Of a DNA stretch of 46,418 bases, positions 21,473 through 46,418 are shown piece by piece. The DNA is from Phycisphaerae bacterium (lineage in GTDB: Bacteria; Planctomycetota; Phycisphaerae; Phycisphaerales; SM1A02). The notes under the pieces were generated by a model. It was not told the origin of the DNA, did not search any database, and saw nothing but the letters and a program-made list of their open reading frames with translations. Position 1 is the first letter of the stretch, and every line of letters starts with the position of its first letter. The stretch is from positions 1 through 46,418 of the forward strand of contig JABHZL010000133.1 in assembly GCA_018656645.1 (NCBI GenBank). Direction: 5' to 3'. Both the position numbers and the translations under genes were made by a program.

Positions 21473-24400
21473 TTAGGGGCACGTTCCAAACGCTGAAATT
21501 AGCAGGAGCAAATCTTCAATATTTACAATGCCATCGTCGTTGATATCAGCATCTGGATCATTTGTATCCCATGCACCAATCAAAGCGAGAAGGTCATCGA
21601 TGCCGACCTCGCCATCATCGTTGATATCACCTGGGCAAGGGATACCAAGGTCTATGTTATTGAGGGATGTCAGTGTTGAACCAACCTCGACGCCCCTAAA
21701 TGATGGCGGCATTGCTGTGGCGAGCCACAAGTCATCTGCTCCATCACCATCAACATCTGCTGAGCGAGCAATCAGTGGAAGTTCTCCTGCACCCTGTTCG
21801 TACCCAACATCGGTGAAGATTGCCTCGCCTGTACCTAGCTCGGTGTCGTTCCTGTATGCGCGTGCTACTTTTACAGATAAAACATCTGTGAGAACAACAA
21901 CAATGTCAAGGTCTCCATCACCATCGAGGTCGATAGATGTAATTGATTCTGGGTTTGTTCCTGAAATTGGAAGTTGCACAGGAGACGCATACACATCCTC
22001 TGATGTTTGAAGAAGAATATCTATTGAATTGCCAACTGGGTCTGCAACAATGAGGTCTTCATGCCCGTTGTTGTCAAGATCTGCAATGATCTGTTCTGCA
22101 ATTCCATCTCCGACTTGGATTACAGTTGGTTCTCCATATTCAAGGATGAATCCGAGACCACTACTTCCTGACTTGAAAATGCTCGTCTTTCCACCGTCTC
22201 CAGTGACTACGACTTTGTCTAAGTCTTTTGTGTCACTGACATCGGTTGGATCGATTGAATTCGCACCTCCTCCTGTAGGGTGATTAGATCCACCAGGTAG
22301 AAATGACGCACTCATGATAGGTCCATTGATAATAGCTAGCATGCCATCACCAGAATTTGCAACTGCAAGATCAATAGAAGTTGGTGTATTAAAATTACCA
22401 ATTGCAACATCAGTTGGAAGAGTGTCAACAGTAGGTGCGTACCAATTGGTTGCAATGTCAGTTTGTTTGATAAATCCTATTCCTGAGTTTGAGTCTATGA
22501 CATTTTTCAGAACAGAAACAGTATTCGCTACCGTGTTTGTAACTACGATATCAATATCGGTATCCCCATCAAGGTCACCTACCGCAAGGCCCGCAGAAGT
22601 ATTACCTACAGGAATCTGGTAGGAACTTGTAAATCCGTTCCATGAACTACCGCTGATGCCACCATTGATAAGAACGAGAACGTCACTTGCTGGCGAATTT
22701 GGAAGTGACAATGCAATATCTGGATATCCGTCATTATTAAAGTCTGCAAACTTTGCGTCAGCAGGCAGGGAGTCGAGACCTGTTTGTTCCTCTCCCCCAA
22801 AACCAATTAAATTTGAAATAGTTTGGAATGTCACAATGACGCTCCCTCCAGTGCCATTTACATTGTTTGTGTAGGAAACAATTGGGACTAGATCGGCGGA
22901 TCCAAAACCTGAAGACATAATTGCATCAAACTGCGTTGTGATAGGTTGAGTTGATTCAATCAATGTGATCGAGAGCCCTGCTGATACTGCTATTTCACCT
23001 TGGAATAAGTACAGGAGCCCGCTTAGTTCCACGTTTCCATCAACAGTTATTTTGCTGTATCCATTTGCAAGATCCCCGTCGATCGGTGTACATGAGGACA
23101 GAATAGTTCCAGACCCAGCAAGTCCTGCAATCGATCCGTTCATCAAGGAAACATCACCATGAATGGTTGGGAATGAATTGTGTGATGAGTCATGTGTAAG
23201 CGTGCCGCTGCAGTAGAGGTTCCCGTAGAGTGTTCCACCTCCATAAAAACCCGCACCATCTCTTACGACCACGCCCTCGGCGGAAGTTATAGAAGCGTTT
23301 TCATTGATGCCAACACTCCCATGACTCTTGCCAGAGATATCAACTTTGTTCGCGACTAGTTGTCCATCAAGGAATACGGCAACAGCGCTCGAAGTTCCAA
23401 CATGGTGCCCAACCAAAAGGCTTGGATAATTTGATTCGGTCAATGTAAGCGTGTTACCCAATAAGCCAAAAGTGCAAAAATCTTGGCTAATTTCAAGTTG
23501 CGATACGGTGTGGTCTTCGAGGAGCAATATGAGTGGTATATCCTCACGTGAACTAAAGTAGGGGATGTCACTTGCCCCTGGAGCATCGGCTGGAAGCCAA
23601 TTTGCGTCAGTTCCGAAATTTGCATAATTTCCACCATTCCAAATGCGGTACCCCGATTCGCCTGAGAGAACTGGTGTATATTCAAAACAGCCCAGATCAA
23701 TGATTGGAGTGGCATCGGGATCCCAATCATCCGTATACGGATCATCTTGAAAGCGTGGGTTCCCATCAAGATCTTCGATTGATTTTGGGAAATCGAATAA
23801 AGTGTTGTTTCCGAAATCTATTGCTATAGAGCTTGGAAGTAAGCGATAATTTTCATCTCCAGTATGTTCGATCCCATCGGGGCCTAGTTCGGAACGGAAT
23901 ATTGGATCTTGATTTGTTAATCCATCCGGAAGCCATTCCGTACCATTTTCGATCAAGCACGTGTCGATTGTAATTGGGCCATTGACTTGGTTGTAGTACC
24001 CACGATCATACACACCCCTATTTCCCCAGACAATTGAATTTTGGAGCGAAATGATTCCAGTGAGGGCGGCTTTATCTCCAATGTTGTAGTTGTTCACGAT
24101 TGTGCAGTTTGTCACACGGCTACCAGTTGTACCAGTGCTCATTTGAAGGGTTGGCCCATCGTTATCAGCAAAAAGGGAGTCTGCTATGTAGGAATAGTTT
24201 GAACCAGAATCACTTGCGTAAAACCCAGCTCCTAAGAGCCAAGCAGTATTTAATCTGAACGTGCATCTATCAATGAAAGCGATGGCAGTTACGCTGATTT
24301 CATCGAAATATATGCCTCCGCCATAGCTTGCTTCGTTATTGCTGAATGTAGAACCCTCGATTCTTGTATTGGTTTCGAAAGCATGCACACCTCCACCAGC

Positions 24401-26986
24401 TCCAGTTCCAATGATTCCAACTGTTGCACGGTTGTCATCGAAGAGTGAGTTAGAAATTTGAAGTGTGCCCTGAGTTGTATGCAGCCCGGCGCCTTTGTAA
24501 TAACAATAGTTATCGCTAAATACACAATTGGAAAAAGTAGAATCCGAATTCATTGCAGCAACACCACCGCCATCGTTTGCTCGGTTGAAATTAAAATTCG
24601 AATTTATAGCTACGATTCCGCCATTATTAATGTATACACCACCGCCTGTACCACCCCAGTCATCAAAACCAGGTCCACCATTTTGCATATCTTCAATTTC
24701 ATTATTCGAAACAACCGACTCATTGAGATATAGATAGCCTGCATCTACATAGATACCCCCAGCACGATCATCTGCTTGATTATTATCTATGAGAGAGTTA
24801 TTGATGATGAGCGTTCCGGTTTGTATGAAAATACCGCCACCATAATTTTCGCCAGTTCCCAATCCCGTCGCCATACCTCTGGTGATTGTGACGCCATCAA
24901 GCACAGAATAAAACCACTCTGTTGGCGAGAAGGTCACAACATGGTACGCATCATCACTTGCAGTTGGAGTGTTGTTGACGTTGCCAGAAAGAACTGTTGG
25001 GTGATTGATGATATCACGTTGTTCAATCGAAGTTTCTGTCCCATCGAATCCGCCATAAACTCTAACTCCAATTGGAATATTGAATGTTGAAGACCGAGAC
25101 AATCCTGGTGTATAGGTACCTTCTGCGACCCAAATTTGTTCACCATTTCCAACAACTGCTAGTGCTTCTTGTACCGTTGGAAAAGCGGTTGCCCATGAAG
25201 TTCCAGTGCCAGTTGTGTTGTCAGCATCGACAAACCAAATTGTTTCGACAGAGGCAATGAGATTGGCTTCAGTTGCACTTGTTTGTTGGGTGAATGATGT
25301 ACCAGCGGGTGCGTTTTGAATGAGTATCTCATCAAACGAAGTATTATTGTAAATATTTCCTTCTACAATCTTGTACACATCACCCTCGAGAGGTTGGATA
25401 CCATCTTCGATTTCTGCGATGAGGGTGCCACCTAGTGTTGCAAAGAAAGTGACGAACAATTTTCGATAATCTGCTGGGTTGTTAAGGTGTACTTTCAGCG
25501 TGCCTTCTGCATTTTGAAAATAGCTGCCATACATATGAATGTATCCAGTCATACTGTCTGTAACTTCCATGAGCCCGCTGTTATCAATTGATTGGCAATA
25601 GAGTTGACCATTACCGATATAGGCACCTTCTGAGCATATATCTAAGTACTCGCAAGAAACAAAGCCACCCTCAGTGAGTAATGTTGCCTCATTGCCATAA
25701 CAACCTATTTGAATCGTTCCCCCAACTTTGCCTAGATAGCCATCTAAAATATCTATCGTTCCACCGAACCAATTTAAATTGCCACCGGGTTCAACGTCAA
25801 TTGAAATTGAAACGATCGTACTTATTTCATTCTGAAGTTGGAGTGTTCCGCCCGATTGCACTGTGATTGGTGCATTGAGAGAACCAGCAGTACTTGAACC
25901 AACACCAACTGCAAGATGTCCTCCATTTTGAATTGTGACTTGGTTTGCGGTTGCCCCAAGTTGATCGATGACAACGCTTGCGTCAATTTCAACATCAACA
26001 GCATTTGTGGGAAGAATGCCGGAACTCCAGTTGGCTGGATCGAACCAACTTCCACCTGGGCTTCCTACCCATGTGACTGCAGAAGCGTCGAGTGTAAGTG
26101 TAAGTGTGCCTGTACCAGATTCTGATCCTTGCCAACCACCAACACGCAAAAGATATTCCTCACCAGCATTCACGGGAATAACTAATGTTGATGTGTAGTA
26201 CAAACAACCATCAAAGTCATCATTACATTCTAGGAAAATGAGATTATTGCAATCCGTTCCGCTATATGCAACAAGATCAGTGTCGTAATTCGCTTGATCA
26301 CAAGTACTGATTGTAAGGGTGCCACTCGCTGGCGCACTGTACCGGTACCAAATATCATTGACCGTCTCGCCTCCATCGCTACCAGCCTCACAACTTGGAT
26401 GGATAGGACCATCTGTTGTGGCATCATATGTTGTGAAATATGTATCACCCTCAACGATGTCAATCGCATCATCACATGCATCGTTGGCAGGGCAGTTTAC
26501 ACTTGTACCTTTGATGTCGACTATGTCGAGTAACAAATCACCCGAGCCAACATACCCTTCGGCCCAGCCTCCCCCAACTCTAATCTTCAGCCGATCGCCT
26601 ATAAAGACGGGCACTTCAACGATGCTCGAGTCTTGGCAACCAGTAGAATCATCTTCACATCCTATGAGTGTTAGGTCGTCACACGAATCCCCAAGATAGA
26701 CAACAATATCGGAGTCGTAATTGACAAGCCCACAAGTGGAAACGAGAAGTGTGCCTTCGCAACCTACAGTGAATGAATACCAAATATCATTGTAGGTTTG
26801 CCCATCAAAGTCACATGTGCCATGCGTATACCCATCAGTTGTCGCGTCAACTGTTGAAAAACTTGTTGTACCCAGGTAAATCTCAGAGGCATTTGCACAC
26901 GCATCGTTGGCAGGTGGACTTAGTGCAAAAACGCTTGTTGTAAAAAACAACACCAAGAAAAACCCAGTAATTATTTTAGGTCCCAT
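21473..26986 (-). CDS. Giant secreted multidomain protein with C-terminal dockerin repeats
   Basis: 1,837 residues. A signal peptide (about 1-22) is followed by two Cys-rich pre-peptidase-like beta domains (about 26-155 and 165-300, each opening NDAC and containing YNDIWYSF/VNDIWYRY), a beta region opening WVGSPGGSWFDPANWSSG (about 305-620), a parallel beta-helix of repeats such as GGGIYFDE and GGVAAMNSD (about 625-1080, beginning WFVDADNTTGTGTSWATAFPT), a second beta region, and a VCBS/FG-GAP-like propeller (DLDGDTDIDIVV, DLDNNGHEDLIV, DVDGDGADDLWL). It ends with two dockerin-like calcium loops (DINDDGEVGIDDLL, DINDDGIVNIEDLL). Likely a surface or released adhesin. AGGAG precedes the ATG by 6 bp. 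mutS follows 18 bp downstream. Confidence 0.9.
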   Translation of the reverse strand: MGPKIITGFFLVLFFTTSVFALSPPANDACANASEIYLGTTSFSTVDATTDGYTHGTCDFDGQTYNDIWYSFTVGCEGTLLVSTCGLVNYDSDIVVYLGDSCDDLTLIGCEDDSTGCQDSSIVEVPVFIGDRLKIRVGGGWAEGYVGSGDLLLDIVDIKGTSVNCPANDACDDAIDIVEGDTYFTTYDATTDGPIHPSCEAGSDGGETVNDIWYRYSAPASGTLTISTCDQANYDTDLVAYSGTDCNNLIFLECNDDFDGCLYYTSTLVIPVNAGEEYLLRVGGWQGSESGTGTLTLTLDASAVTWVGSPGGSWFDPANWSSGILPTNAVDVEIDASVVIDQLGATANQVTIQNGGHLAVGVGSSTAGSLNAPITVQSGGTLQLQNEISTIVSISIDVEPGGNLNWFGGTIDILDGYLGKVGGTIQIGCYGNEATLLTEGGFVSCEYLDICSEGAYIGNGQLYCQSIDNSGLMEVTDSMTGYIHMYGSYFQNAEGTLKVHLNNPADYRKLFVTFFATLGGTLIAEIEDGIQPLEGDVYKIVEGNIYNNTSFDEILIQNAPAGTSFTQQTSATEANLIASVETIWFVDADNTTGTGTSWATAFPTVQEALAVVGNGEQIWVAEGTYTPGLSRSSTFNIPIGVRVYGGFDGTETSIEQRDIINHPTVLSGNVNNTPTASDDAYHVVTFSPTEWFYSVLDGVTITRGMATGLGTGENYGGGIFIQTGTLIINNSLIDNNQADDRAGGIYVDAGYLYLNESVVSNNEIEDMQNGGPGFDDWGGTGGGVYINNGGIVAINSNFNFNRANDGGGVAAMNSDSTFSNCVFSDNYCYYKGAGLHTTQGTLQISNSLFDDNRATVGIIGTGAGGGVHAFETNTRIEGSTFSNNEASYGGGIYFDEISVTAIAFIDRCTFRLNTAWLLGAGFYASDSGSNYSYIADSLFADNDGPTLQMSTGTTGSRVTNCTIVNNYNIGDKAALTGIISLQNSIVWGNRGVYDRGYYNQVNGPITIDTCLIENGTEWLPDGLTNQDPIFRSELGPDGIEHTGDENYRLLPSSIAIDFGNNTLFDFPKSIEDLDGNPRFQDDPYTDDWDPDATPIIDLGCFEYTPVLSGESGYRIWNGGNYANFGTDANWLPADAPGASDIPYFSSREDIPLILLLEDHTVSQLEISQDFCTFGLLGNTLTLTESNYPSLLVGHHVGTSSAVAVFLDGQLVANKVDISGKSHGSVGINENASITSAEGVVVRDGAGFYGGGTLYGNLYCSGTLTHDSSHNSFPTIHGDVSLMNGSIAGLAGSGTILSSCTPIDGDLANGYSKITVDGNVELSGLLYLFQGEIAVSAGLSITLIESTQPITTQFDAIMSSGFGSADLVPIVSYTNNVNGTGGSVIVTFQTISNLIGFGGEEQTGLDSLPADAKFADFNNDGYPDIALSLPNSPASDVLVLINGGISGSSWNGFTSSYQIPVGNTSAGLAVGDLDGDTDIDIVVTNTVANTVSVLKNVIDSNSGIGFIKQTDIATNWYAPTVDTLPTDVAIGNFNTPTSIDLAVANSGDGMLAIINGPIMSASFLPGGSNHPTGGGANSIDPTDVSDTKDLDKVVVTGDGGKTSIFKSGSSGLGFILEYGEPTVIQVGDGIAEQIIADLDNNGHEDLIVADPVGNSIDILLQTSEDVYASPVQLPISGTNPESITSIDLDGDGDLDIVVVLTDVLSVKVARAYRNDTELGTGEAIFTDVGYEQGAGELPLIARSADVDGDGADDLWLATAMPPSFRGVEVGSTLTSLNNIDLGIPCPGDINDDGEVGIDDLLALIGAWDTNDPDADINDDGIVNIEDLLLLISAFGTCP

Positions 26987-38248: not shown

Positions 38249-39394
38249 ATGAGCATGTTAAAACAGATGAGTGATTCCTTTGCACCATTAGAATGGGCTC
38301 GAGCGATTGATATTGCTGGCCTTCAAATGGCAGAAGCATCAGGCGTGCACGATTGTTCTATTACAGCTTTGTGTTGGCCTGCGGTGTACGGATATTGTAT
38401 TGCAAATGGTTGCAGTGACCACGAAGCATTTATTGCTACAGCAACAAGCATCGATTTACTGTTAACTAAAAATCGCGAACGCTCGGGTACGTATTTCAGT
38501 GGTGGACATCAAAGGCAACTTTTGTTCAATCTTACTGAAGAACATCTAGAACGATGTAGATCAAACGGTTGGGATTCAATTGCCCCGCAAGTCGAACATC
38601 CTTGTGAGCAAATTGACATTATTGAGCCATTATTGGAGGGGATGTTGACAAGTACGACTCCGGAAGAAGCGTTTGATCGGCTTTGGGGCGCTTCTCTTGT
38701 TCTGACAGCGATGTTGCAAACGGAAGAAGAATGCTACAGCGAGGGTCTTGAGCCGCACTGGAATATTTTTGAAGCGAGAGTATTGAATGCTTCATTCACA
38801 CGAACTCCAAAAAAAGATTACTCTTTTCTACTTGGAATATGGGGTGTACCAGATATCGCTCAAGCGTCCACTATGCTCACTCGTGTACAACGAAGGTTTG
38901 CTCGCCAAATTCGATCAGTGATTAAAGAAACAGTTGACGATGAGTTGCAGGTTGATCCAGAACTCAACGAACTTCGCCGCGCTTTACATGGTGTAGGAAT
39001 GGTTGAAGCTATTTGCGAACCGCTACGTTGGGCGTGCCGTGTTGAACACGATCCGGCCACTCTTTCAACCGACATGATTGCGTTCGATATTTCCGATAAA
39101 AAAAATGTCGAGAGTTTTTTTCTTGACTCACCCTCGATTGAGGATTTGATTAATGCGAAAAATTGTTATAAAACATTGCGTTTGATGGGCGAACACGGGG
39201 TGGTTGAACGGAGACGAGGGGCGTATCTTTATCTTGTTGCAATTGCATGTGCGATGGTCAATCACGGCCAACGAATTTCTAGCCAATCCAATGATGCACT
39301 CAGACGCGGATTTGGTGCAATGCGTGACGAGAGACGACTACCTCGATCGCTGAGAATTATTGCCGTGAAAGCACTAAAATTATTGGATCCATAA
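38249..39394 (+). CDS. Hypothetical protein, helical
   Basis: 381 residues, soluble, helix-rich, no signal or membrane segment. Blocks such as WGASLVLTAMLQTEEECYSEG, FARQIRSVIKETVDDELQVD and LRLMGEHGVVERRRGAYLY are visible but I recognise no family; the last may be a winged-helix-like end. Cys are scattered, not in metal-site pairs. Divergent from ahcY with 60 bp between them. A second ATG at 38255 is possible. Closed by the bidirectional terminator shared with the HlyD-type gene. Confidence 0.7.
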   Translation: MSMLKQMSDSFAPLEWARAIDIAGLQMAEASGVHDCSITALCWPAVYGYCIANGCSDHEAFIATATSIDLLLTKNRERSGTYFSGGHQRQLLFNLTEEHLERCRSNGWDSIAPQVEHPCEQIDIIEPLLEGMLTSTTPEEAFDRLWGASLVLTAMLQTEEECYSEGLEPHWNIFEARVLNASFTRTPKKDYSFLLGIWGVPDIAQASTMLTRVQRRFARQIRSVIKETVDDELQVDPELNELRRALHGVGMVEAICEPLRWACRVEHDPATLSTDMIAFDISDKKNVESFFLDSPSIEDLINAKNCYKTLRLMGEHGVVERRRGAYLYLVAIACAMVNHGQRISSQSNDALRRGFGAMRDERRLPRSLRIIAVKALKLLDP

Positions 39395-39403
39395 TAAAAT
39401 ACG

Positions 39404-39430
39404 AATAAACAACCCGCGGGGTTGTTTATT
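39404..39430. terminator. Bidirectional terminator between convergent genes
   Basis: Perfect 12-bp stem: AATAAACAACCC (39404-39415), loop GCG, GGGTTGTTTATT (39419-39430). It serves the plus-strand hypothetical gene and, because it contains the stop codon at 39426-39428, the minus-strand HlyD-type gene. Confidence 0.75.
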
Positions 39431-40229
39431 GGAATGTAACAACAACATGTGATCCGCCGGGAAATCCATCAGGATTAGGAATGACTATTCGGATGAGTTG
39501 TGTTTCACTGCCAGGATCGGCAACAGTTGCAACATGTGCAATCGTCCCCTCGAGTATTGGAGTACCTATTAATTGTGGAAACAAAACATTGGCACTGCCG
39601 CCAACTTTTAACGTATCTGCAACCGTCATTGGCACAGGTGCATCTACAACCAAAGGATCGATTGTCACGAGACGAAGTACAGGTCGTACATCTGCGACGA
39701 GCTCGCCGATATCAACCTTTACAATTTCAACTGTCCCGCTGATCGGTGCTACGAGATGATGTTGTTGCAGTTGTGCATAGATCTGCTGGTGCTGCGCAAC
39801 TGCTTCTTCTTTTCGCTGTACAAAAAGTTGCCAAGCGAGTCGCTTGCGAATCGTATTTGTTTTCGCTCTTTGCATTTCAAGATCATTGATAGCGTGTCTG
39901 TCATATGCCTTTTGAGCCGCATTTTCTTCGAGAACCGCAAGGTCATACTCGGATTTAGAAGCGTCAATTTCAAGGGTACTTTCTGCCCTGATTTTTTGCA
40001 ATGATTCTTGGGCAGCGACTGCGTCACTGACAAGGCTAATCAAAACAGTGCCCTTACTGACTTGGTCTCCAGGTTCTACGATGACAGATTCCACTTCTCC
40101 ACGGATAACAAATCCAAGATCGAGGTCATGTTCAGGGACTGCAATTGCATCGAATCCATCATTGGGTCGCAAATAGGCTGCACCGCAAAGAAATAATAGA
40201 GTGCCAATAAAAACTGTAGTACGAATCAT
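39426..40229 (-). CDS. HlyD-family periplasmic adaptor
   Basis: 267 residues from ATG 40229, with AAGGA about 7 bp upstream; 15 upstream in-frame codons are less likely. N-terminal signal/anchor (IRTTVFIGTLLFLCGAAYL), a biotinyl-lipoyl-like half (GEVESVIVEPGDQVSKGTVLISL), a coiled coil (about 75-155, ESLQKIRAESTLEI and EENAAQKAYDRHAI), and the return barrel (LVAPISGTVEIVKVDIGELV). Adaptor proteins of this type join inner-membrane exporters to outer-membrane channels. It faces away from the DUF3467-GAF-M50-SecA operon across a 135-bp gap, so shared control and function are likely. Confidence 0.85.
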   Translation of the reverse strand: MIRTTVFIGTLLFLCGAAYLRPNDGFDAIAVPEHDLDLGFVIRGEVESVIVEPGDQVSKGTVLISLVSDAVAAQESLQKIRAESTLEIDASKSEYDLAVLEENAAQKAYDRHAINDLEMQRAKTNTIRKRLAWQLFVQRKEEAVAQHQQIYAQLQQHHLVAPISGTVEIVKVDIGELVADVRPVLRLVTIDPLVVDAPVPMTVADTLKVGGSANVLFPQLIGTPILEGTIAHVATVADPGSETQLIRIVIPNPDGFPGGSHVVVTFQ

Positions 40230-40279
40230 CTGGTTTTTCCTTATTTGTGGAAACTCGTCATTATGTGAGAACAAATAGT

Positions 40280-40364: not shown

Positions 40365-40727
40365 ATGGCAGACAATGAACCCAACGCAGGTGAACAACCC
40401 AAACAAACGATGCAGTTGAGAATTGATACCTCCAACAGCGTGACGCAATACACAAATATTTTCAAATTTTCTAGATTGCCAGAAGAGGTGTTACTAGACA
40501 TTGGAATGACCGCTGTAGATATAGGCGCAAATACAGAGGGCAAGGCTGTTCCTCAAATGGTGATGAAGTACCCAACTCGGCTAGTGATGACGTACTCCAC
40601 TGCGAAACGTATGGCAATCTCATTTGCAGGGCTTGTAAAAGAGTACGAAGATAAATTCGGACCAATTCCAATTAGCAGTGGAGGCTCTAACGCAAAGCAA
40701 GCAAAACCTGACGAAGGCTCAGAGTGA
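40365..40727 (+). CDS. DUF3467-domain protein
   Basis: 120 residues. VTQYTNIFKFSRLPEEVLLDIGMT and PTRLVMTYSTAKRMA match my memory of DUF3467, a small beta-rich family of unknown function present in planctomycetes, Bacteroidetes and others. No signal peptide. AAAGGA precedes the ATG by 7 bp. The stop overlaps the GTG of the next gene by four bases, so it is the translationally coupled first gene of the export-like operon. It might act as a substrate-binding or regulatory subunit; this is inference. Confidence 0.8.
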   Translation: MADNEPNAGEQPKQTMQLRIDTSNSVTQYTNIFKFSRLPEEVLLDIGMTAVDIGANTEGKAVPQMVMKYPTRLVMTYSTAKRMAISFAGLVKEYEDKFGPIPISSGGSNAKQAKPDEGSE

Positions 40728-42517
40728 GTGATTCAAACGTGCAACAGAATAGCGATCATCAAGGCGAGCCTAATCATGCTGTCTCCCTTCACCAGACTCT
40801 CGGTGATATATGTTCAATTGGTGCAGTCCCATCCGGCGTAGTCATCCGTTATCTAGAAGATGGACCTGTTGAAGTTCTTGCTATCCATCCTGTTCCAGAA
40901 AGTAACGAACCACCGGCATGGTTGTCAGCAGTTGCAATTGAAGCAAGAGCATTAAACGGAGAAGATCCAAAGTCGGTTATTGAAATAGAAGATTGCAACG
41001 TAGTGTTCAAACACTTGGCTGTCTCTGACAAGACAAATTCTAGGACTGTGATTGCAATATATCACACAGCCGATGCAGACAAATTCGAAACACTATCAGT
41101 TCTCTCTGGTTTACTTGTTGCAGATGAAGCAAAACTTTCTGCATTTGAGAGCCAAGCAGCAGTTGCACGGTTAGCATCTGTCGTTGAATGCGCAGGTGCA
41201 ATGGGAAGTTACGATAGGGCACGGACAGCAGCATTTTCTTTAGTCAACCATATCGAATCGCATTGGTCCTGTAGCCGAGTCTCTGTTGGTTTTGTTGAAG
41301 AACAATATATTGCAGTGCTTGCTATGAGTAACACTGAAGAAATACTTCGAAAAATGGAAGCTGTGCGTTTAATCGAATCTGCCATGGAGGAGTGCGCAGA
41401 TCAAGCCACAGAAGTAGAATTTCCTCGTAGCGTAGGATCGAGAATTGTAAGAGCAACAAAAGAACTTGCTTCCAAGTGCGATGATGTAGCGGTGCTGAGC
41501 GTTCCACTTCACTACAAAGACGAAGTGTTTGCTGTGATTACTCTTGAGCGACAGAGCGGTGAAATTTTTACGGACATTGATGTTGATAGCATTCGTTTAC
41601 TTGGTGAACTTGTGCAAAACCCGCTATCTTTGCTGCACAGACACGATCGTTGGTGGGGGAGAAGATGCACTGATTTTTGTAGAGAGAAAATCGAAATGGT
41701 GCTAGGTCCTGAGCATACTTGGATCAAACTTGCAGGTGTCATTGTCGTGTTGCTATTGTGTTTCATGCTTTTTGGTAAGGGCACATACAGAGTTGAGGGT
41801 ACTTTTACAGTTGGGGTAGAAGACCGCGCGGTAATCGCAGTCCCATTCGATGGTGAAATTATGGCCGTACACGTTCGTCCGGGAGATGTAGTAGTTTCTG
41901 GTGAAACAGTTCTGCTTGAATTCGATACTATCGAATTAGAGTTACAACTTGCTACCACAGAAGCCTCTCTCGCGAAAGCTCAGAGAGAAGTATCAGTGGC
42001 TCAGCGTGAACACGATGAAGCAACTGCAAAAATGGCTCGCTCAGATGTCGACAAAGCGCAAGCAGAAATTGATTTGCTCAATCATCGACTCGGCATCTCG
42101 TCAGCTGTTGCACCGATTTCTGGGCATGTTCTTTCTGGCGATCTTGAAAGGCTCGTGGGCCTACCTGTGTCTCGCGGTGAAATTCTCATGGAACTTGCCC
42201 CGCTTGAATCTTTCTATGCTGATATTTTTGTCAATCAGTCAGAAATACTTGATGTCGAAGTTGGGCAAGAAGGAGAGGTTGCAACCGCTGCGTATCCGGG
42301 TCACTACATTTCGTTAGTTGTAGAGGCAATTGAACCACTTGGTCAGGTAGGTGATATGGAAACGGTATTTCGTGTACGAGCAAAGTTAACCAATCCACCA
42401 GCGTGGCTTCGACCTGGTATGGAAGGGGTTGCGAAAGTAAACGCTGGTCGTAAACATTACATTGTCATGTGGACGAAACCCGTCATCGATTGGTTACGCA
42501 TGTGGCTGTGGATTTAA
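40724..42517 (+). CDS. GAF-domain / HlyD-type adaptor fusion
   Basis: 597 residues. The N-terminal cytosolic part contains a GAF-like domain at about 140-300 (LVNHIESHWSCSRVSVGFVEE, then VLSVPLHYKDEVFAVITLERQSG and FTDIDVDSIRLLGEL, standard GAF ends). One transmembrane helix follows at about 334-350. The periplasmic part has a lipoyl-like half (AVPFDGEIMAVHVRPGDVVVSG), a short coiled coil (about 410-450) and barrel return (SSAVAPISGHVLSG). GTG start overlaps the DUF3467 stop. A GAF sensor joined directly to an export adaptor is unusual; it may couple a cytosolic signal to export. Three bp separate it from the M50 gene. Confidence 0.82.
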   Translation: MSDSNVQQNSDHQGEPNHAVSLHQTLGDICSIGAVPSGVVIRYLEDGPVEVLAIHPVPESNEPPAWLSAVAIEARALNGEDPKSVIEIEDCNVVFKHLAVSDKTNSRTVIAIYHTADADKFETLSVLSGLLVADEAKLSAFESQAAVARLASVVECAGAMGSYDRARTAAFSLVNHIESHWSCSRVSVGFVEEQYIAVLAMSNTEEILRKMEAVRLIESAMEECADQATEVEFPRSVGSRIVRATKELASKCDDVAVLSVPLHYKDEVFAVITLERQSGEIFTDIDVDSIRLLGELVQNPLSLLHRHDRWWGRRCTDFCREKIEMVLGPEHTWIKLAGVIVVLLLCFMLFGKGTYRVEGTFTVGVEDRAVIAVPFDGEIMAVHVRPGDVVVSGETVLLEFDTIELELQLATTEASLAKAQREVSVAQREHDEATAKMARSDVDKAQAEIDLLNHRLGISSAVAPISGHVLSGDLERLVGLPVSRGEILMELAPLESFYADIFVNQSEILDVEVGQEGEVATAAYPGHYISLVVEAIEPLGQVGDMETVFRVRAKLTNPPAWLRPGMEGVAKVNAGRKHYIVMWTKPVIDWLRMWLWI

Positions 42518-42520
42518 CCA

Positions 42521-44692
42521 ATGGCAATTGACCGACCAACATTTCATGAATCTTGGTATAGAGTGCATGCTCTACAGCCAAAGCTCAGAGCAGATACTAG
42601 AGTTTTTAGACAGAAATTTCGTGGTGTTCTCTGGTATGTCATTGAAGACCCTGTCACAAATAATTTCTTTCGACTAAACAAATATGCATACCAATTTCTT
42701 GGTTTACTCGATGGAACGCTTTCTGTTGAACAAGCATGGAATCGTTGTATGGAAGAAGACCCAGACGGTTCTCCCACACAAGGAGAAGTGATTGAACTTC
42801 TTGGCAATTTATACCAATCCAATTTGATCCAATCCGAAGTGCCAAGTGATGCCGCAGCATTATTTGATAGATATTCAACTCGAAGGGCGAAAGAAATACG
42901 AGGGAAACTTGCGAGTATTCTTTTTATTAGGATACCCCTGTACGACCCAGATCTCTTTTTGAACCGCTGGTCGTACATGGTTGAGAAAATTTTTACTAGA
43001 GGCGGCGCAGCAGTTCTATTGTTGATGATGCTTTTAGGCTTGATTGCAATAATCGCTTCTGCTAATAGTTTGAGTTCAGGTTTTTCGGGAATCTTGACGC
43101 CAAACAATTTGCCATTTTTGTATTTGGCATTTGTGTTAATTAAAGTGTTGCATGAATCTGGTCACGCCTTTGCATGTAAAGTCTTTGGGCATCGCGAAGG
43201 CGGTGGTGGAGAGGTACACGCTGTTGGCATTATGTTCCTAGTGTTTATTCCTGTGCCTTACGTAGATGCAAGTAGTTCTTGGGCACTTCGTTCAAAAACA
43301 GGTCGTGTTGTTATTGGATCGGCAGGTATGATGATGGAGCTGGCAGTTGCTTCAATCGCTGCGGTCGTATGGGCAAGCACCGATGCGTTAACTGGCGTAA
43401 ATGCATTTTGTTACAACCTCATGTTTGTCGCAGGTGTTTCAACAATTTTATTCAATGGCAATCCCTTGCTTCGTTATGACGGATATTACATTCTGTGCGA
43501 TTTGTTAGAAATACCTAACCTTGCAACAAGAGCGAGGACGCATATTAGAAATGTGATGCGTAAAAAAGTTCTTGGTGTCCATCGGGTTATTGATGTGACT
43601 GACTCTAAGAGTGAAAAGTCATGGCTCCTTGCTTACGCGATTGCATCAGGAATTTACAGGGTATTTATCTACTCTATGATTCTGATGTTTCTAGCTTCGC
43701 TTCTTCCTATCGCCGCAGTTCTGTTGGTTGTCTATGCGATTATCAACTGGGTTTGCATACCCATCGGGAAGTTTATTCACTATTTAACAACTAGTCCCGA
43801 TCTTGACCGGTGCCGCGCTCGAGCGATTACGGTAACAATTGCAGGCACTTCGATTTTCATCTTCTTAGTTGGAATTCTTCCACTGCCAGATCATGTTCGA
43901 GGTGAAGGAGTTGTGGAGGCGATAAGCAGAGTTGCACTTTTTTCAATCGCAAAGGGTGAGGTCGATTTGCTGCTCGCAGCTGGAACTCGCGTGGAAAAGG
44001 AAGAGCAAGTCCTATTGTCTGCAAACAGCATAGATGAAGAAACTAGTTTGGCTATCGTTTCAGCAGATCTCTCTAGACTGCAAACGCAAAAAGCAATCGC
44101 GATGCGTGATGAATTTGCGAGTGTTGCACCTCTTTCTAGAATGGTTGACGCTACAAAACGACAACTGAATTGGATTGGTGAACGAGTAGAATCTTTGGAG
44201 GTGCGTTCGCCAATTAATGGCGTGTGGATGCCAAGTGAAAACTTGCGCCGTGACGGTGCGGTCTTTAGTCAGGGGGATTCATTGGGAATCGTAATTGACG
44301 ATTCAAAACTTGTTGTAAGAGCGATTGCAGATCAACGTACCGCTGCTTTGATCATCAATGAAGGAAGCAATCTTGTAGAAATGCGGCTTTCAGGTAATCC
44401 TGGTCGCTTTTCTTATGGTGAGATCGAACGAATTGTTCCCGCCGGCAGCGAGGATCTGCCCTCACCAGTGTTGGGGATATCTGCAGGCGGTGAAGCGATG
44501 GTCGATCCTACAGATGCTCGCGGAGGCAAATTACTTGATGCGGTTTTTGAAATTTGGATTCAACTCGATCCAGACGTTGTACTCATGCCTGGGCAACGAG
44601 TAACTGTTCGGTTTTCACTGGAATATCGATCACTAGGGTCCCAGGTTTGGCGTTTCTTGCGTCAAATTGTGCAAAAACGTTTACGGTTCTAA
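42521..44692 (+). CDS. PqqD-like / M50 site-2 protease / HlyD-type fusion
   Basis: 723 residues. Residues 25-105 look like a PqqD-type winged helix (FFRLNKYAYQFLGLLDGTLSVEQAW, then TQGEVIELLGNLY), a fold used elsewhere to bind peptide leaders. A membrane-embedded M50 peptidase follows: HESGH (211-215) and NGNPLLRYDGYY (312-323) provide the three zinc ligands and sit between hydrophobic helices. From about 460 a lipoyl-like/coiled-coil adaptor region begins (RGEGVVEAISRVALFS, then LEVRSPINGVW). Together these could recognise, cleave and pass on a protein. The start ATG is 3 bp after the upstream stop; the SecA-like gene starts 2 bp after its own. Confidence 0.85.
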   Translation: MAIDRPTFHESWYRVHALQPKLRADTRVFRQKFRGVLWYVIEDPVTNNFFRLNKYAYQFLGLLDGTLSVEQAWNRCMEEDPDGSPTQGEVIELLGNLYQSNLIQSEVPSDAAALFDRYSTRRAKEIRGKLASILFIRIPLYDPDLFLNRWSYMVEKIFTRGGAAVLLLMMLLGLIAIIASANSLSSGFSGILTPNNLPFLYLAFVLIKVLHESGHAFACKVFGHREGGGGEVHAVGIMFLVFIPVPYVDASSSWALRSKTGRVVIGSAGMMMELAVASIAAVVWASTDALTGVNAFCYNLMFVAGVSTILFNGNPLLRYDGYYILCDLLEIPNLATRARTHIRNVMRKKVLGVHRVIDVTDSKSEKSWLLAYAIASGIYRVFIYSMILMFLASLLPIAAVLLVVYAIINWVCIPIGKFIHYLTTSPDLDRCRARAITVTIAGTSIFIFLVGILPLPDHVRGEGVVEAISRVALFSIAKGEVDLLLAAGTRVEKEEQVLLSANSIDEETSLAIVSADLSRLQTQKAIAMRDEFASVAPLSRMVDATKRQLNWIGERVESLEVRSPINGVWMPSENLRRDGAVFSQGDSLGIVIDDSKLVVRAIADQRTAALIINEGSNLVEMRLSGNPGRFSYGEIERIVPAGSEDLPSPVLGISAGGEAMVDPTDARGGKLLDAVFEIWIQLDPDVVLMPGQRVTVRFSLEYRSLGSQVWRFLRQIVQKRLRF

Positions 44693-44694
44693 TC

Positions 44695-46418
44695 ATGGCA
44701 CGAAATGTTGAATCATGGAAACTTTTTGAACGGCTCAACCTTCGCCCAAGACAACTCAAGGGGCTTGACGCTGGGTGGTGGCGAACGGTTGGATGGTTTT
44801 CTAGATTCCGACCAAAAACCAAATTTTACCTTGAAGAAGCACAAGCAGTCAAAGATGCTGCTGAAGAATTAGAAAAAGAAACTGACTCGTTTATTCGTAG
44901 TAGTTGTAGTGAACTACGAGAGCGGTATCGAACTGGCCGTGAATATCAGGAAGATCGTTTGCGTGGTGCATCGTTATGGGTTGAGGCAGTACGTAGAACA
45001 ATGAACCTTGACCCGCACGTCGAACAAATTGCAGGTGGATTGGCGATGATGGACGACACCATTATTGAAATGGCAACAGGGGAAGGAAAAACAATTACTG
45101 CAACTCTTCCTGCGATGTTTGCAGGGTGGCGCGGTCGTGGATGCCACGTTGTTACGGTCAACGATTACCTTTCGAGTCGCGACGCAAAGTGGATGGGCAT
45201 AATTTACAACATCTGCGGAGTGAGTGTCGGGAGCGTCGTGCACGAAACAACACCTGAGGAGCGTAAGGCTGCATACAGTGCTGATGTTACATACGCATCA
45301 AGTAAAGAACTTGCCGCAGATTTTTTACGAGACTGTTTAGCAGTGCGGCGTACACCTGCACTTGTTCCAACACTCATTGACACAATCATCGATGGGTCAA
45401 GCCGAGTTGACCGAATTTTGCAAAGGGGGTTATCGCATGTGATTGTGGATGAGGCAGACAGTGTGTTGATCGACGAAGCGGTCACTCCTCTGATTATTTC
45501 ATCTCAAGGTGGAAAAGTCGAATCGGAGTTGTACCAACAGGCAGCAACATTAGCAGGGGAACTTCAACTCGATCTTCATTACACGATCAATGAGAGATAT
45601 CGCGAGATCAACATGACAGATGAGGGTCTTGAGCGATTAGAAGAACTCTGCAAAGGTAAGCAAGGAGTGTGGAGAGGACAGAGGCGTAGAGAAGAACTTG
45701 TCACGCAAGCAATCACTGCAAAGGAGTTGTACCAGGAGGGTACAAGTTACGTTATCGTTGACGAGAAAGTTGTGATCGTTGACGAGTTTACAGGAAGGTT
45801 GATGCCCGATCGTTCTTGGCGCGATGGGTTACATCAAGCAGTTGAAGCAAAAGAAGGGCTTGAAATTCAATCCTCAAAAGACACAGTTGCGCGCATTAGT
45901 TTTCAACGGTTCTTTCGTTCGTATGATCATCTCAGTGGTATGACAGGTACTGCGAAAGAATCGGTTAATGAATTTTGGAGAGTGTATGAAACCGCAGTAG
46001 TTTTGGTGCCTTCACACCGACCCTGCATTCGAGAACAATGGTCAGACCTTTCTTATGAAACGAAAGATGAAAAACTTTCAGCCGTGATAGAAGAGATTAT
46101 GGAAGTTTCTGACGCAGGACGACCAGTGCTCGTTGGTGTTCGTTCAGTTGAAGAGAGTGAGCAGCTCAGTGAAGCGCTAGGGAGACTTAATCGCAAGCAT
46201 GAATTACTAAACGCAACTCGCCATGATGAGGAGGCAAGAATTATCCAAGGCGCAGGAGCAACTTCTCATATCACTATCGCAACGAACATGGCAGGAAGAG
46301 GAACGGATATAAAACTTGCAGATGGTGTTGCAGAGTTGGGTGGTATGCATGTGATCATCACTGAAAAACATGAAGCTGCAAGGATCGATAGACAATTTTT
46401 TGGTCGCGCAGGAAGACA
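44695..46418 (+). CDS. SecA-like ATPase (3' end outside window)
   Basis: 574 residues are present and the frame is open at the window edge. Motifs of a SecA-type motor: MATGEGKT (126-133, Walker A), VVTVNDYLSSRDA, DEADSVLIDEA (Walker B, where SecA has DEVDSILIDEAR), IVDEFTGRLMPDR, DGLHQAVEAKEG, MTGTAKE, ATNMAGRGTDIK and, at the very end, FGRAGR. The cross-linking domain (about 275-360) is shorter than in housekeeping SecA, and the Walker B region carries an insertion before it (LVPTLIDTIIDGSS). It starts 2 bp after the M50 gene stop. Likely a dedicated SecA paralogue rather than the main SecA. Confidence 0.9.
   Translation, partial: MARNVESWKLFERLNLRPRQLKGLDAGWWRTVGWFSRFRPKTKFYLEEAQAVKDAAEELEKETDSFIRSSCSELRERYRTGREYQEDRLRGASLWVEAVRRTMNLDPHVEQIAGGLAMMDDTIIEMATGEGKTITATLPAMFAGWRGRGCHVVTVNDYLSSRDAKWMGIIYNICGVSVGSVVHETTPEERKAAYSADVTYASSKELAADFLRDCLAVRRTPALVPTLIDTIIDGSSRVDRILQRGLSHVIVDEADSVLIDEAVTPLIISSQGGKVESELYQQAATLAGELQLDLHYTINERYREINMTDEGLERLEELCKGKQGVWRGQRRREELVTQAITAKELYQEGTSYVIVDEKVVIVDEFTGRLMPDRSWRDGLHQAVEAKEGLEIQSSKDTVARISFQRFFRSYDHLSGMTGTAKESVNEFWRVYETAVVLVPSHRPCIREQWSDLSYETKDEKLSAVIEEIMEVSDAGRPVLVGVRSVEESEQLSEALGRLNRKHELLNATRHDEEARIIQGAGATSHITIATNMAGRGTDIKLADGVAELGGMHVIITEKHEAARIDRQFFGRAGR

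Follow-up and report, generated by a model that had tools for sequence, protein, structure and literature searches.

Several described systems share parts with the locus studied here. The accessory Sec system of Gram-positive bacteria dedicates a second SecA (SecA2) to very large surface proteins such as adhesins. Type I secretion and tripartite efflux systems join an ABC, RND or MFS pump to an adaptor and a TolC channel, and the same three pump types are those listed for TolC-type exporters in the consulted part of PMC8277102. Among RiPP leader proteases, the daptide protease MpaP (NF041824) consists of an N-terminal RRE/PqqD domain joined to an M50 intramembrane protease; according to the available portion of PMC10036551, this RRE-M50 protease removes the leader in an RRE-dependent manner.

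The window analysed here is a whole contig of 46,418 bases from a Phycisphaerae bacterium and ends inside a secA gene. An initial annotation had described one of its ORFs as a fusion of a PqqD-like winged helix, an M50 protease and an adaptor, and had proposed that, combined with its SecA neighbour, this fusion may define a new class of processed, exported peptides or proteins. The features considered were:

39426-40274, minus strand: second HlyD/RND-type adaptor, 282 aa, divergent (Pfam)
40365-40727, plus strand: DUF3467 protein, 120 aa, overlapping the next gene by 4 nt (Pfam)
40724-42517, plus strand: cytoplasmic GAF module, one TM helix and HlyD/MacA-type adaptor (GAF-HlyD), 597 aa (Pfam, model, structure comparison)
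42521-44692, plus strand: fusion of PqqD/RRE, M50 site-2 protease and HlyD/MacA-type adaptor, 723 aa, ATG start (Pfam, NCBIfam, alignment, model)
42572-42835, plus strand: PqqD/RRE winged helix of the fusion, residues 18-105, presumed reader of the LEPR-XLL tag (Pfam, model, VIA-align)
42998-43873, plus strand: M50 membrane core, residues 160-451, about seven model helices with predicted topology (Pfam, model)
43151-43165, plus strand: HExxH zinc motif, residues 211-215 (H211, E212 and H215 invariant in 31/31 homologues)
43460-43480, plus strand: motif of the third zinc ligand, NPLLRYD(G), residues 314-320 (N314, P315 and D320 invariant in 31/31 homologues)
43877-44662, plus strand: periplasmic adaptor part (barrel-sandwich, alpha-hairpin, barrel), residues 453-714 (VIA-align with MacA, Foldseek)
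44695-46418, plus strand: SecA-like motor (SecA2), truncated where the contig ends, with the rest on contig C64

The fusion resembles MpaP in its N-terminal RRE/PqqD domain and M50 protease but has an extra C-terminal adaptor, stands in an operon with SecA and further adaptors, and is linked to giant proteins rather than to small peptides. The locus shares HlyD/MacA-type adaptors, a TolC-like channel and a presumed RTX-rich substrate with type I secretion and tripartite efflux; however, the pump is replaced by a SecA-type motor and a leader protease, as far as the six window genes scanned are concerned, and the presumed signal is N-terminal. The second SecA and its link to giant proteins recall the accessory Sec system, whereas the SecA found here is without most of the wing/scaffold domain, is linked to an RRE-M50-adaptor protein and TolC, and would serve an N-terminal tag with no hydrophobic core.

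Domain architecture of the fusion protein

At least 90% of 31 aligned homologues shared the first methionine of the fusion ORF. Pfam recognised PqqD (residues 39-103, E 8.5e-4), M50 (201-397, E 5.8e-4) and HlyD_3 (561-642, E 0.0017) in that order, with all three matches below the gathering scores (PqqD 20.0 vs. 23.4 bits; M50 19.7 vs. 27.2). At E ≤ 0.01, the 31 homologues matched PqqD in 25 cases (best E 3.5e-8), M50 in 27 and HlyD_3 in 24, so that the PqqD profile, matched weakly by the window protein, was recovered in most of its homologues. The AlphaFold2 model (31 sequences) had a mean pLDDT of 84.4 and a pTM of 0.63, and its residues 27-99 formed three strands and three helices, a winged helix like that of leader-binding RREs. 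Structural alignment of the predicted model with VIA-align matched residues 18-105 to 6jx3_B (Z 9.5, 84/85 aligned, rmsd 3.0), a leader-binding lasso-peptide B1 protein of a kind that has been solved with its leader, and residues 453-714 to MacA (9qgy_G; Z 15.8, 231 aligned, rmsd 4.2), a comparison by which the membrane part was hardly tested. Foldseek placed the adaptor part at E 3e-12. The three-part architecture of the initial annotation was thus recovered by Pfam, in the homologues and in the model compared with solved structures, and this domain structure supports the view that elements of recognition, cleavage and export are present in one chain. Given the approximately seven membrane helices of the model, the PqqD domain is predicted to be cytoplasmic and the adaptor to lie outside the inner membrane.

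By sequence, both M50 zinc motifs, HExxH and NPxxxxDG, are intact. Residues H211, E212, H215, N314, P315 and D320 were invariant in the alignment of all 31 homologues, and none of these had a mutated site, in agreement with the earlier statement that the zinc site is intact. The best NCBIfam match was the daptide leader protease family NF041824 (152.6 bits, E 1.6e-44), which was also matched by 31/31 homologues at E ≤ 0.01. Assignment of the fusion to this family was rejected, its score lying below the equivalog cut-off of 300. The window's genome held no second copy of the fusion; the sole other match was the adaptor part of the GAF-HlyD gene.

Operon structure and a short SecA

The co-directional genes for DUF3467, GAF-HlyD, the fusion and SecA follow each other with a 4-nt overlap and then gaps of 3 and 2 nt, and the divergent HlyD gene lies upstream of this four-gene run. 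The spacing leaves no room for a small RiPP-type precursor among the four genes, and no RiPP-modifying families were recognised among the genes scanned (six by Pfam, five by NCBIfam). Nor were ABC, RND or MFS pump families found among the six window genes scanned by Pfam. The operon of the window contains no TolC gene; TolC-like genes were located on other contigs of the genome. In the GAF-HlyD protein, a GAF fold (Z 17.8 to 3ci6_A) is joined through a single TM helix to a MacA-like adaptor, an architecture that suggests ligand-gated assembly.

Among the 121 loci clustered, a few of which overlap (e.g., L045 and L103), the DUF3467 gene recurred in 22, usually beside GAF-HlyD. A gene for 381 aa at 38249-39394 (plus strand), without Pfam or NCBIfam match, occurred beside the set only here and in the sister genome G004 among the clustered loci. 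Further away, the minus strand at 21473-26986 encodes a large, probably extracellular protein of 1,837 aa with a galactose-binding-like domain of T9SS-associated type and FG-GAP repeats, for which the whole-genome scan gave no LEPR match.

The SecA neighbour is a genuine secA gene, running from 44695 to the end of the window, where the contig truncates it. Its C-terminal part was found on contig C64 of the same genome, at a gap of approximately 12 bases estimated by comparison with G004, and a second, housekeeping SecA is encoded on another contig. SecA was the sole ATPase recognised in the gene set. The complete operon SecA of the sister species has 645 aa; its best match to a solved SecA covered query residues 49-598 and broke off at residue 555 of the 783 in that chain. 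The operon SecAs carry DEAD, PPXD and P-loop domains as well as Walker A, and TGEGK[ST] was found in 87/89 clustered SecAs. The wing and scaffold domain (PF07516) was detected in none of five operon SecAs at E ≤ 0.001, two of which gave stubs of 24 and 30 residues (E 0.037 and 0.71), while three of three housekeeping SecAs had it at E ≤ 3.4e-24. In BLAST comparisons with the sister operon SecA, the 13/13 operon SecAs of other lineages that were tested scored 419-562 bits, against 185-329 bits for six housekeeping SecAs of planctomycetes, a few of them partial sequences. Because operon SecAs outscore housekeeping ones and PF07516 is missing, the operon SecA looks like a separate short branch that comprises motor and clamp with little of the remainder.

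Distribution of the gene set

Strong homologues of the fusion were found in 58/151 relatives (61 with a match, less the weak G030, G053 and G057, E 1.9e-17 to 1.3e-4), in 82/343 genomes of the window's phylum and in 90/398 Pseudomonadota. E limits were 0.001 for the relatives and 1e-40 for the phylum and Pseudomonadota samples. The fusion is therefore part of a widespread bacterial gene set and no oddity. Its usual partners are GAF-HlyD and the short SecA, often with HlyD and a TolC-like channel. Simple clustering of 41 neighbourhoods of relatives, including the window, gave GAF-HlyD in 36, the fusion in 33, SecA in 28, HlyD in 25 and DUF3467 in 10, numbers that were lowered by miscalled ORFs. 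ORF calling in GC-rich relatives had produced shadow ORFs, for which a codon-position filter was added; since several fusion and secA genes remained miscalled despite the filter, gene counts are approximate.

The set, or most of it, recurred at 80 loci of named genomes, spanning Planctomycetota, Verrucomicrobiota, alpha-, beta- and gammaproteobacteria, Desulfo- and Myxococcus-type bacteria, Nitrospirota, Spirochaetes, Elusimicrobia and Omnitrophota; the closest named relatives of the window fusion were Phycisphaerae MAGs. SecA lay within 3 kb of 81 of the 102 M50-type genes that had at least 1.2 kb of downstream flank, some of these loci overlapping, and was not found beside the other 21, in some cases through faulty ORF calling. 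A TolC-like cluster was near the set in 31/121 loci, and all eight members tested were PF02321.

Within the window's genus (G000 to G012), the fusion was present in only 2/13 members searched, the other 11 being 84-97% complete, a patchiness that suggests that it was gained recently or lost repeatedly. At L057, L059, L060, L061, L062 and L064, the fusions were lower-scoring and accompanied by GAF-HlyD and HlyD, with no SecA seen adjacent, and may represent a second type, the two types being split by score only, in the Pseudomonadota sample. SecA is thus not universal, as the lower-scoring fusions examined in relatives have none beside them and 21/102 M50-type genes are likewise without it. As to the proposed new class, the possibility of a class of processed, exported proteins has held up and the SecA neighbour is meaningful, but the fusion is common rather than a single new combination.

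LEPR-XLL proteins

Large neighbours of the gene set in many phyla share an N-terminal tag, ExLEPRxLLSA, which corresponds to NCBIfam LEPR-XLL (NF012209); six of six neighbours tested, picked for a visible motif, scored above the cut-off. In the window's genome a single NF012209 match was obtained (31.7 bits vs. a cut-off of 17). It belongs to an open frame of 7,994 codons, giving 7,991 aa from the likely GTG start, with the N-terminus VSERERTRPQFERLEQRVLLSADLAPM. This giant gene makes up 1.2% of the genome and begins approximately 170 nt after the end of secA, on the same strand, on the contig that continues the window (C64). In the sister genome G004, this tag recurs at the corresponding point of the junction, cut by the end of the contig. 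As the gene lies just beyond the window, it was missed in the initial annotation. Farther downstream, contig C64 (L222 1437-4828) carries one DUF58-like (weak) gene and one transglutaminase-like gene.

The giant protein is rich in G and D, contains less than 0.05% cysteine and comprises RTX repeats (29 stretches), PA14, parallel beta-helix, malectin and Ig-like domains and a C-terminal dockerin, from which it is probably adhesin- or enzyme-like. LEPR-XLL open frames reached 19,427 residues, and a LEPR-XLL frame of 12,896 codons in Thioclava pacifica ends just before the operon. N-termini could be sampled at 36 of 40 loci, four lacking the pattern. A 15-residue stretch of hydropathy ≥1.6 was absent from 35/36, and the net charge before the tag (up to 30 residues) had a median of +4, with three of 36 acidic at -5; the mostly basic N-termini and the near absence of hydrophobic stretches make an ordinary signal peptide unlikely. 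LEPR-XLL has been mentioned in passing, for a giant Vibrio protein of approximately 8,000 aa with RTX (PMC10868602) and in PMC9611531, and the consulted parts of these two papers contained no export route for such proteins.

Association of LEPR-XLL proteins with the fusion

The association between fusion and LEPR-XLL genes was strong (Table 1, given here line by line as sample, LEPR-positive genomes with the fusion, background and p-value).

Relatives: 44/46 among the matches listed; 58/151 overall; 3e-23
Window's family, taken as G000-G090: 3/5 among the matches listed; p 0.0016
Phylum sample: 19/20; 82/343 overall; 4e-12
Phylum sample outside the window's order: 8/9; 66/322; 1.6e-5
Pseudomonadota (phylum of Thioclava pacifica): 40/41; 50/357 LEPR-negative, 90/398 overall; 1e-28

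The relatives and phylum samples overlap, and the p-values ignore shared ancestry and genome size, which could inflate the association; this is answered in part by its recurrence inside the family, in genomes outside the order and in a second phylum. LEPR proteins were also found in 39/49 named fusion carriers searched, of 80 found. LEPR searches used E limits of 0.01 for relatives and named carriers and 0.001 for the window's genome and the phylum and Pseudomonadota samples. Absences on either side are uncertain, since the best few candidates per genome were scored in the phylum and Pseudomonadota searches and the figures for relatives refer to part of their LEPR matches. LEPR-positive genomes without the fusion were G008 (weak), G023, G310 and G732; of the nine LEPR-positive Pseudomonadota without the high-scoring fusion, eight had the lower-scoring one. 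Fusion carriers without a LEPR match numbered 14/58 in the relatives, 63/82 in the phylum sample and 50/90 in Pseudomonadota. These are partly missed detections, as G004 scored negative (and is still counted so in all co-occurrence figures) yet has the tag at its secA junction, and partly they may use other tags.

Adjacency pointed in the same direction. In the Pseudomonadota sample, a fusion gene was located no more than 6 kb away from 21/55 LEPR genes; the fusion places G621:C133 and G811:C238, outside the linkage list of this sample, are on contigs without a listed LEPR match. A profile derived from 25 LEPR genes, one of them the system-adjacent giant of the window's genome and the others not near a known fusion gene, found matches in 26/120 fusion loci (in one, L117, the core motif is missing by eye); the controls gave three matches in 20 shuffled copies, approximately 0.15 per scan, and none in reversed sequence. 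The LEPR-like neighbours were within 500 nt of a system gene in 22/26 cases and on the strand of the fusion in 20/25. Physical linkage in the relatives was modest, with 8/150 listed LEPR matches lying within 20 kb of the fusion where 1.9 were expected. The RiPP-type substrate implied by the initial annotation was therefore not borne out in the form of a small precursor in the operon; instead, co-occurrence and adjacency make the LEPR-XLL giants the likely substrate class.

Proposed export mechanism and alternatives

We consider it likely that the gene set encodes a dedicated machine for giant proteins tagged N-terminally with LEPR-XLL, which it would recognise, trim and export. The giant would be made without a hydrophobic signal peptide, starting with a mostly basic stretch followed by ExLEPRxLLSA. 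The cytoplasmic PqqD/RRE domain, whose fold is the only one in the set known to read peptides, would bind the tag as RRE domains bind RiPP leaders, and the short SecA, encoded 2 nt downstream of the fusion, would provide ATP-driven movement of the chain. The chain would then cross the inner membrane via SecYEG or via the membrane part of the fusion, where the M50 domain would remove the tag; the adaptors of the fusion, of GAF-HlyD and of the third HlyD, together with a TolC-like channel, would carry it through the periplasm and the outer membrane. Gating of the machine may fall to the GAF part.

A bolder variant is one-step secretion without SecYEG, with the M50 fusion as inner-membrane gate onto which the wing/scaffold-less SecA docks and a leader-reading protease in place of the ABC pump, as a general LEPR-XLL exporter in Planctomycetota, Verrucomicrobiota, Pseudomonadota, Nitrospirota, Omnitrophota and others. 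The two-helix finger, a piece of the wing/scaffold part of SecA, works in SecY, and the operon SecA would be without it because that part is missing. We regard this variant as conceivable though doubtful. For the recognition step, the leader motif of daptides, E-L-D-P-M-E, resembles L-E-P-R, a tentative analogy over four residues; in the available portion of PMC10036551, its L and M are needed by the partner RRE protein MpaB, which, rather than the protease, is the subject of the residue tests.

That the best family match of the fusion is the daptide protease and that residues 18-105 have an RRE fold would also fit a RiPP pathway, in which the fusion acts as leader peptidase and exporter of a small modified peptide (daptide- or epipeptide-like) and the LEPR-XLL proteins are only neighbours. 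Such a pathway seems very improbable in view of an NF041824 score of 152.6 against a cut-off of 300, an operon so tightly packed (4-nt overlap, gaps of 3 and 2 nt) that it cannot hold a precursor, the absence of modifying families among the genes scanned (six by Pfam, five by NCBIfam) and the association with LEPR in three samples, two of them overlapping. M50 proteases commonly act in regulated intramembrane proteolysis and a GAF module is encoded in the adjoining gene, so the fusion might trim membrane proteins in envelope maintenance or serve a GAF-linked regulator while the adaptors serve a separate efflux pump. The adaptor is, however, fused into the same chain as the M50 domain, adaptor, TolC and SecA are linked across many phyla, and none of the six window genes scanned belongs to an RND, MFS or ABC pump family, which renders this reading improbable.

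The LEPR-XLL proteins might instead be exported by ordinary Sec or a type I ABC exporter, with the present system only maturing or anchoring them afterwards in a sortase-like manner. RTX repeats, which the giant contains, are typical of type I substrates. In the same direction, 9/41 LEPR-positive Pseudomonadota were without the high-scoring fusion, and a large protein of another lineage has a standard signal peptide according to the consulted part of PMC12057145. We nevertheless hold a sortase-like role to be unlikely, as 35/36 LEPR N-termini are without a hydrophobic stretch, the PqqD domain is predicted to be cytoplasmic, and the system mostly comes with a motor and adaptors of its own, often also with a TolC.

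Implications

The proposed recognise-trim-export machine falls outside type I secretion, tripartite efflux, RiPP leader proteases and accessory Sec. Its parts are each known, while the machine appears to be undescribed, and export through the gene set is what we infer. No description of it was found in the open-access literature, as far as consulted, and the gene set is not mentioned in the parts seen of PMC3482391 (polymorphic toxins) or of the giant-protein papers PMC11573180, PMC10066038, PMC12057145 and PMC12288469. Likewise, the open-access texts, in the parts seen, yielded no described exit route for LEPR-XLL giants.

Proteins of 5,000 to 19,000 residues are encoded in many bacterial phyla. 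If the proposed machine operates as outlined, there would be, for those with LEPR-XLL, a tag at the start, a machine cognate to it and a likely enzyme for its cleavage, and a SecA-type motor would be added to the ways in which TolC-type exporters are energised. RRE domains would then recognise leaders of giant proteins as well as those of small peptides.
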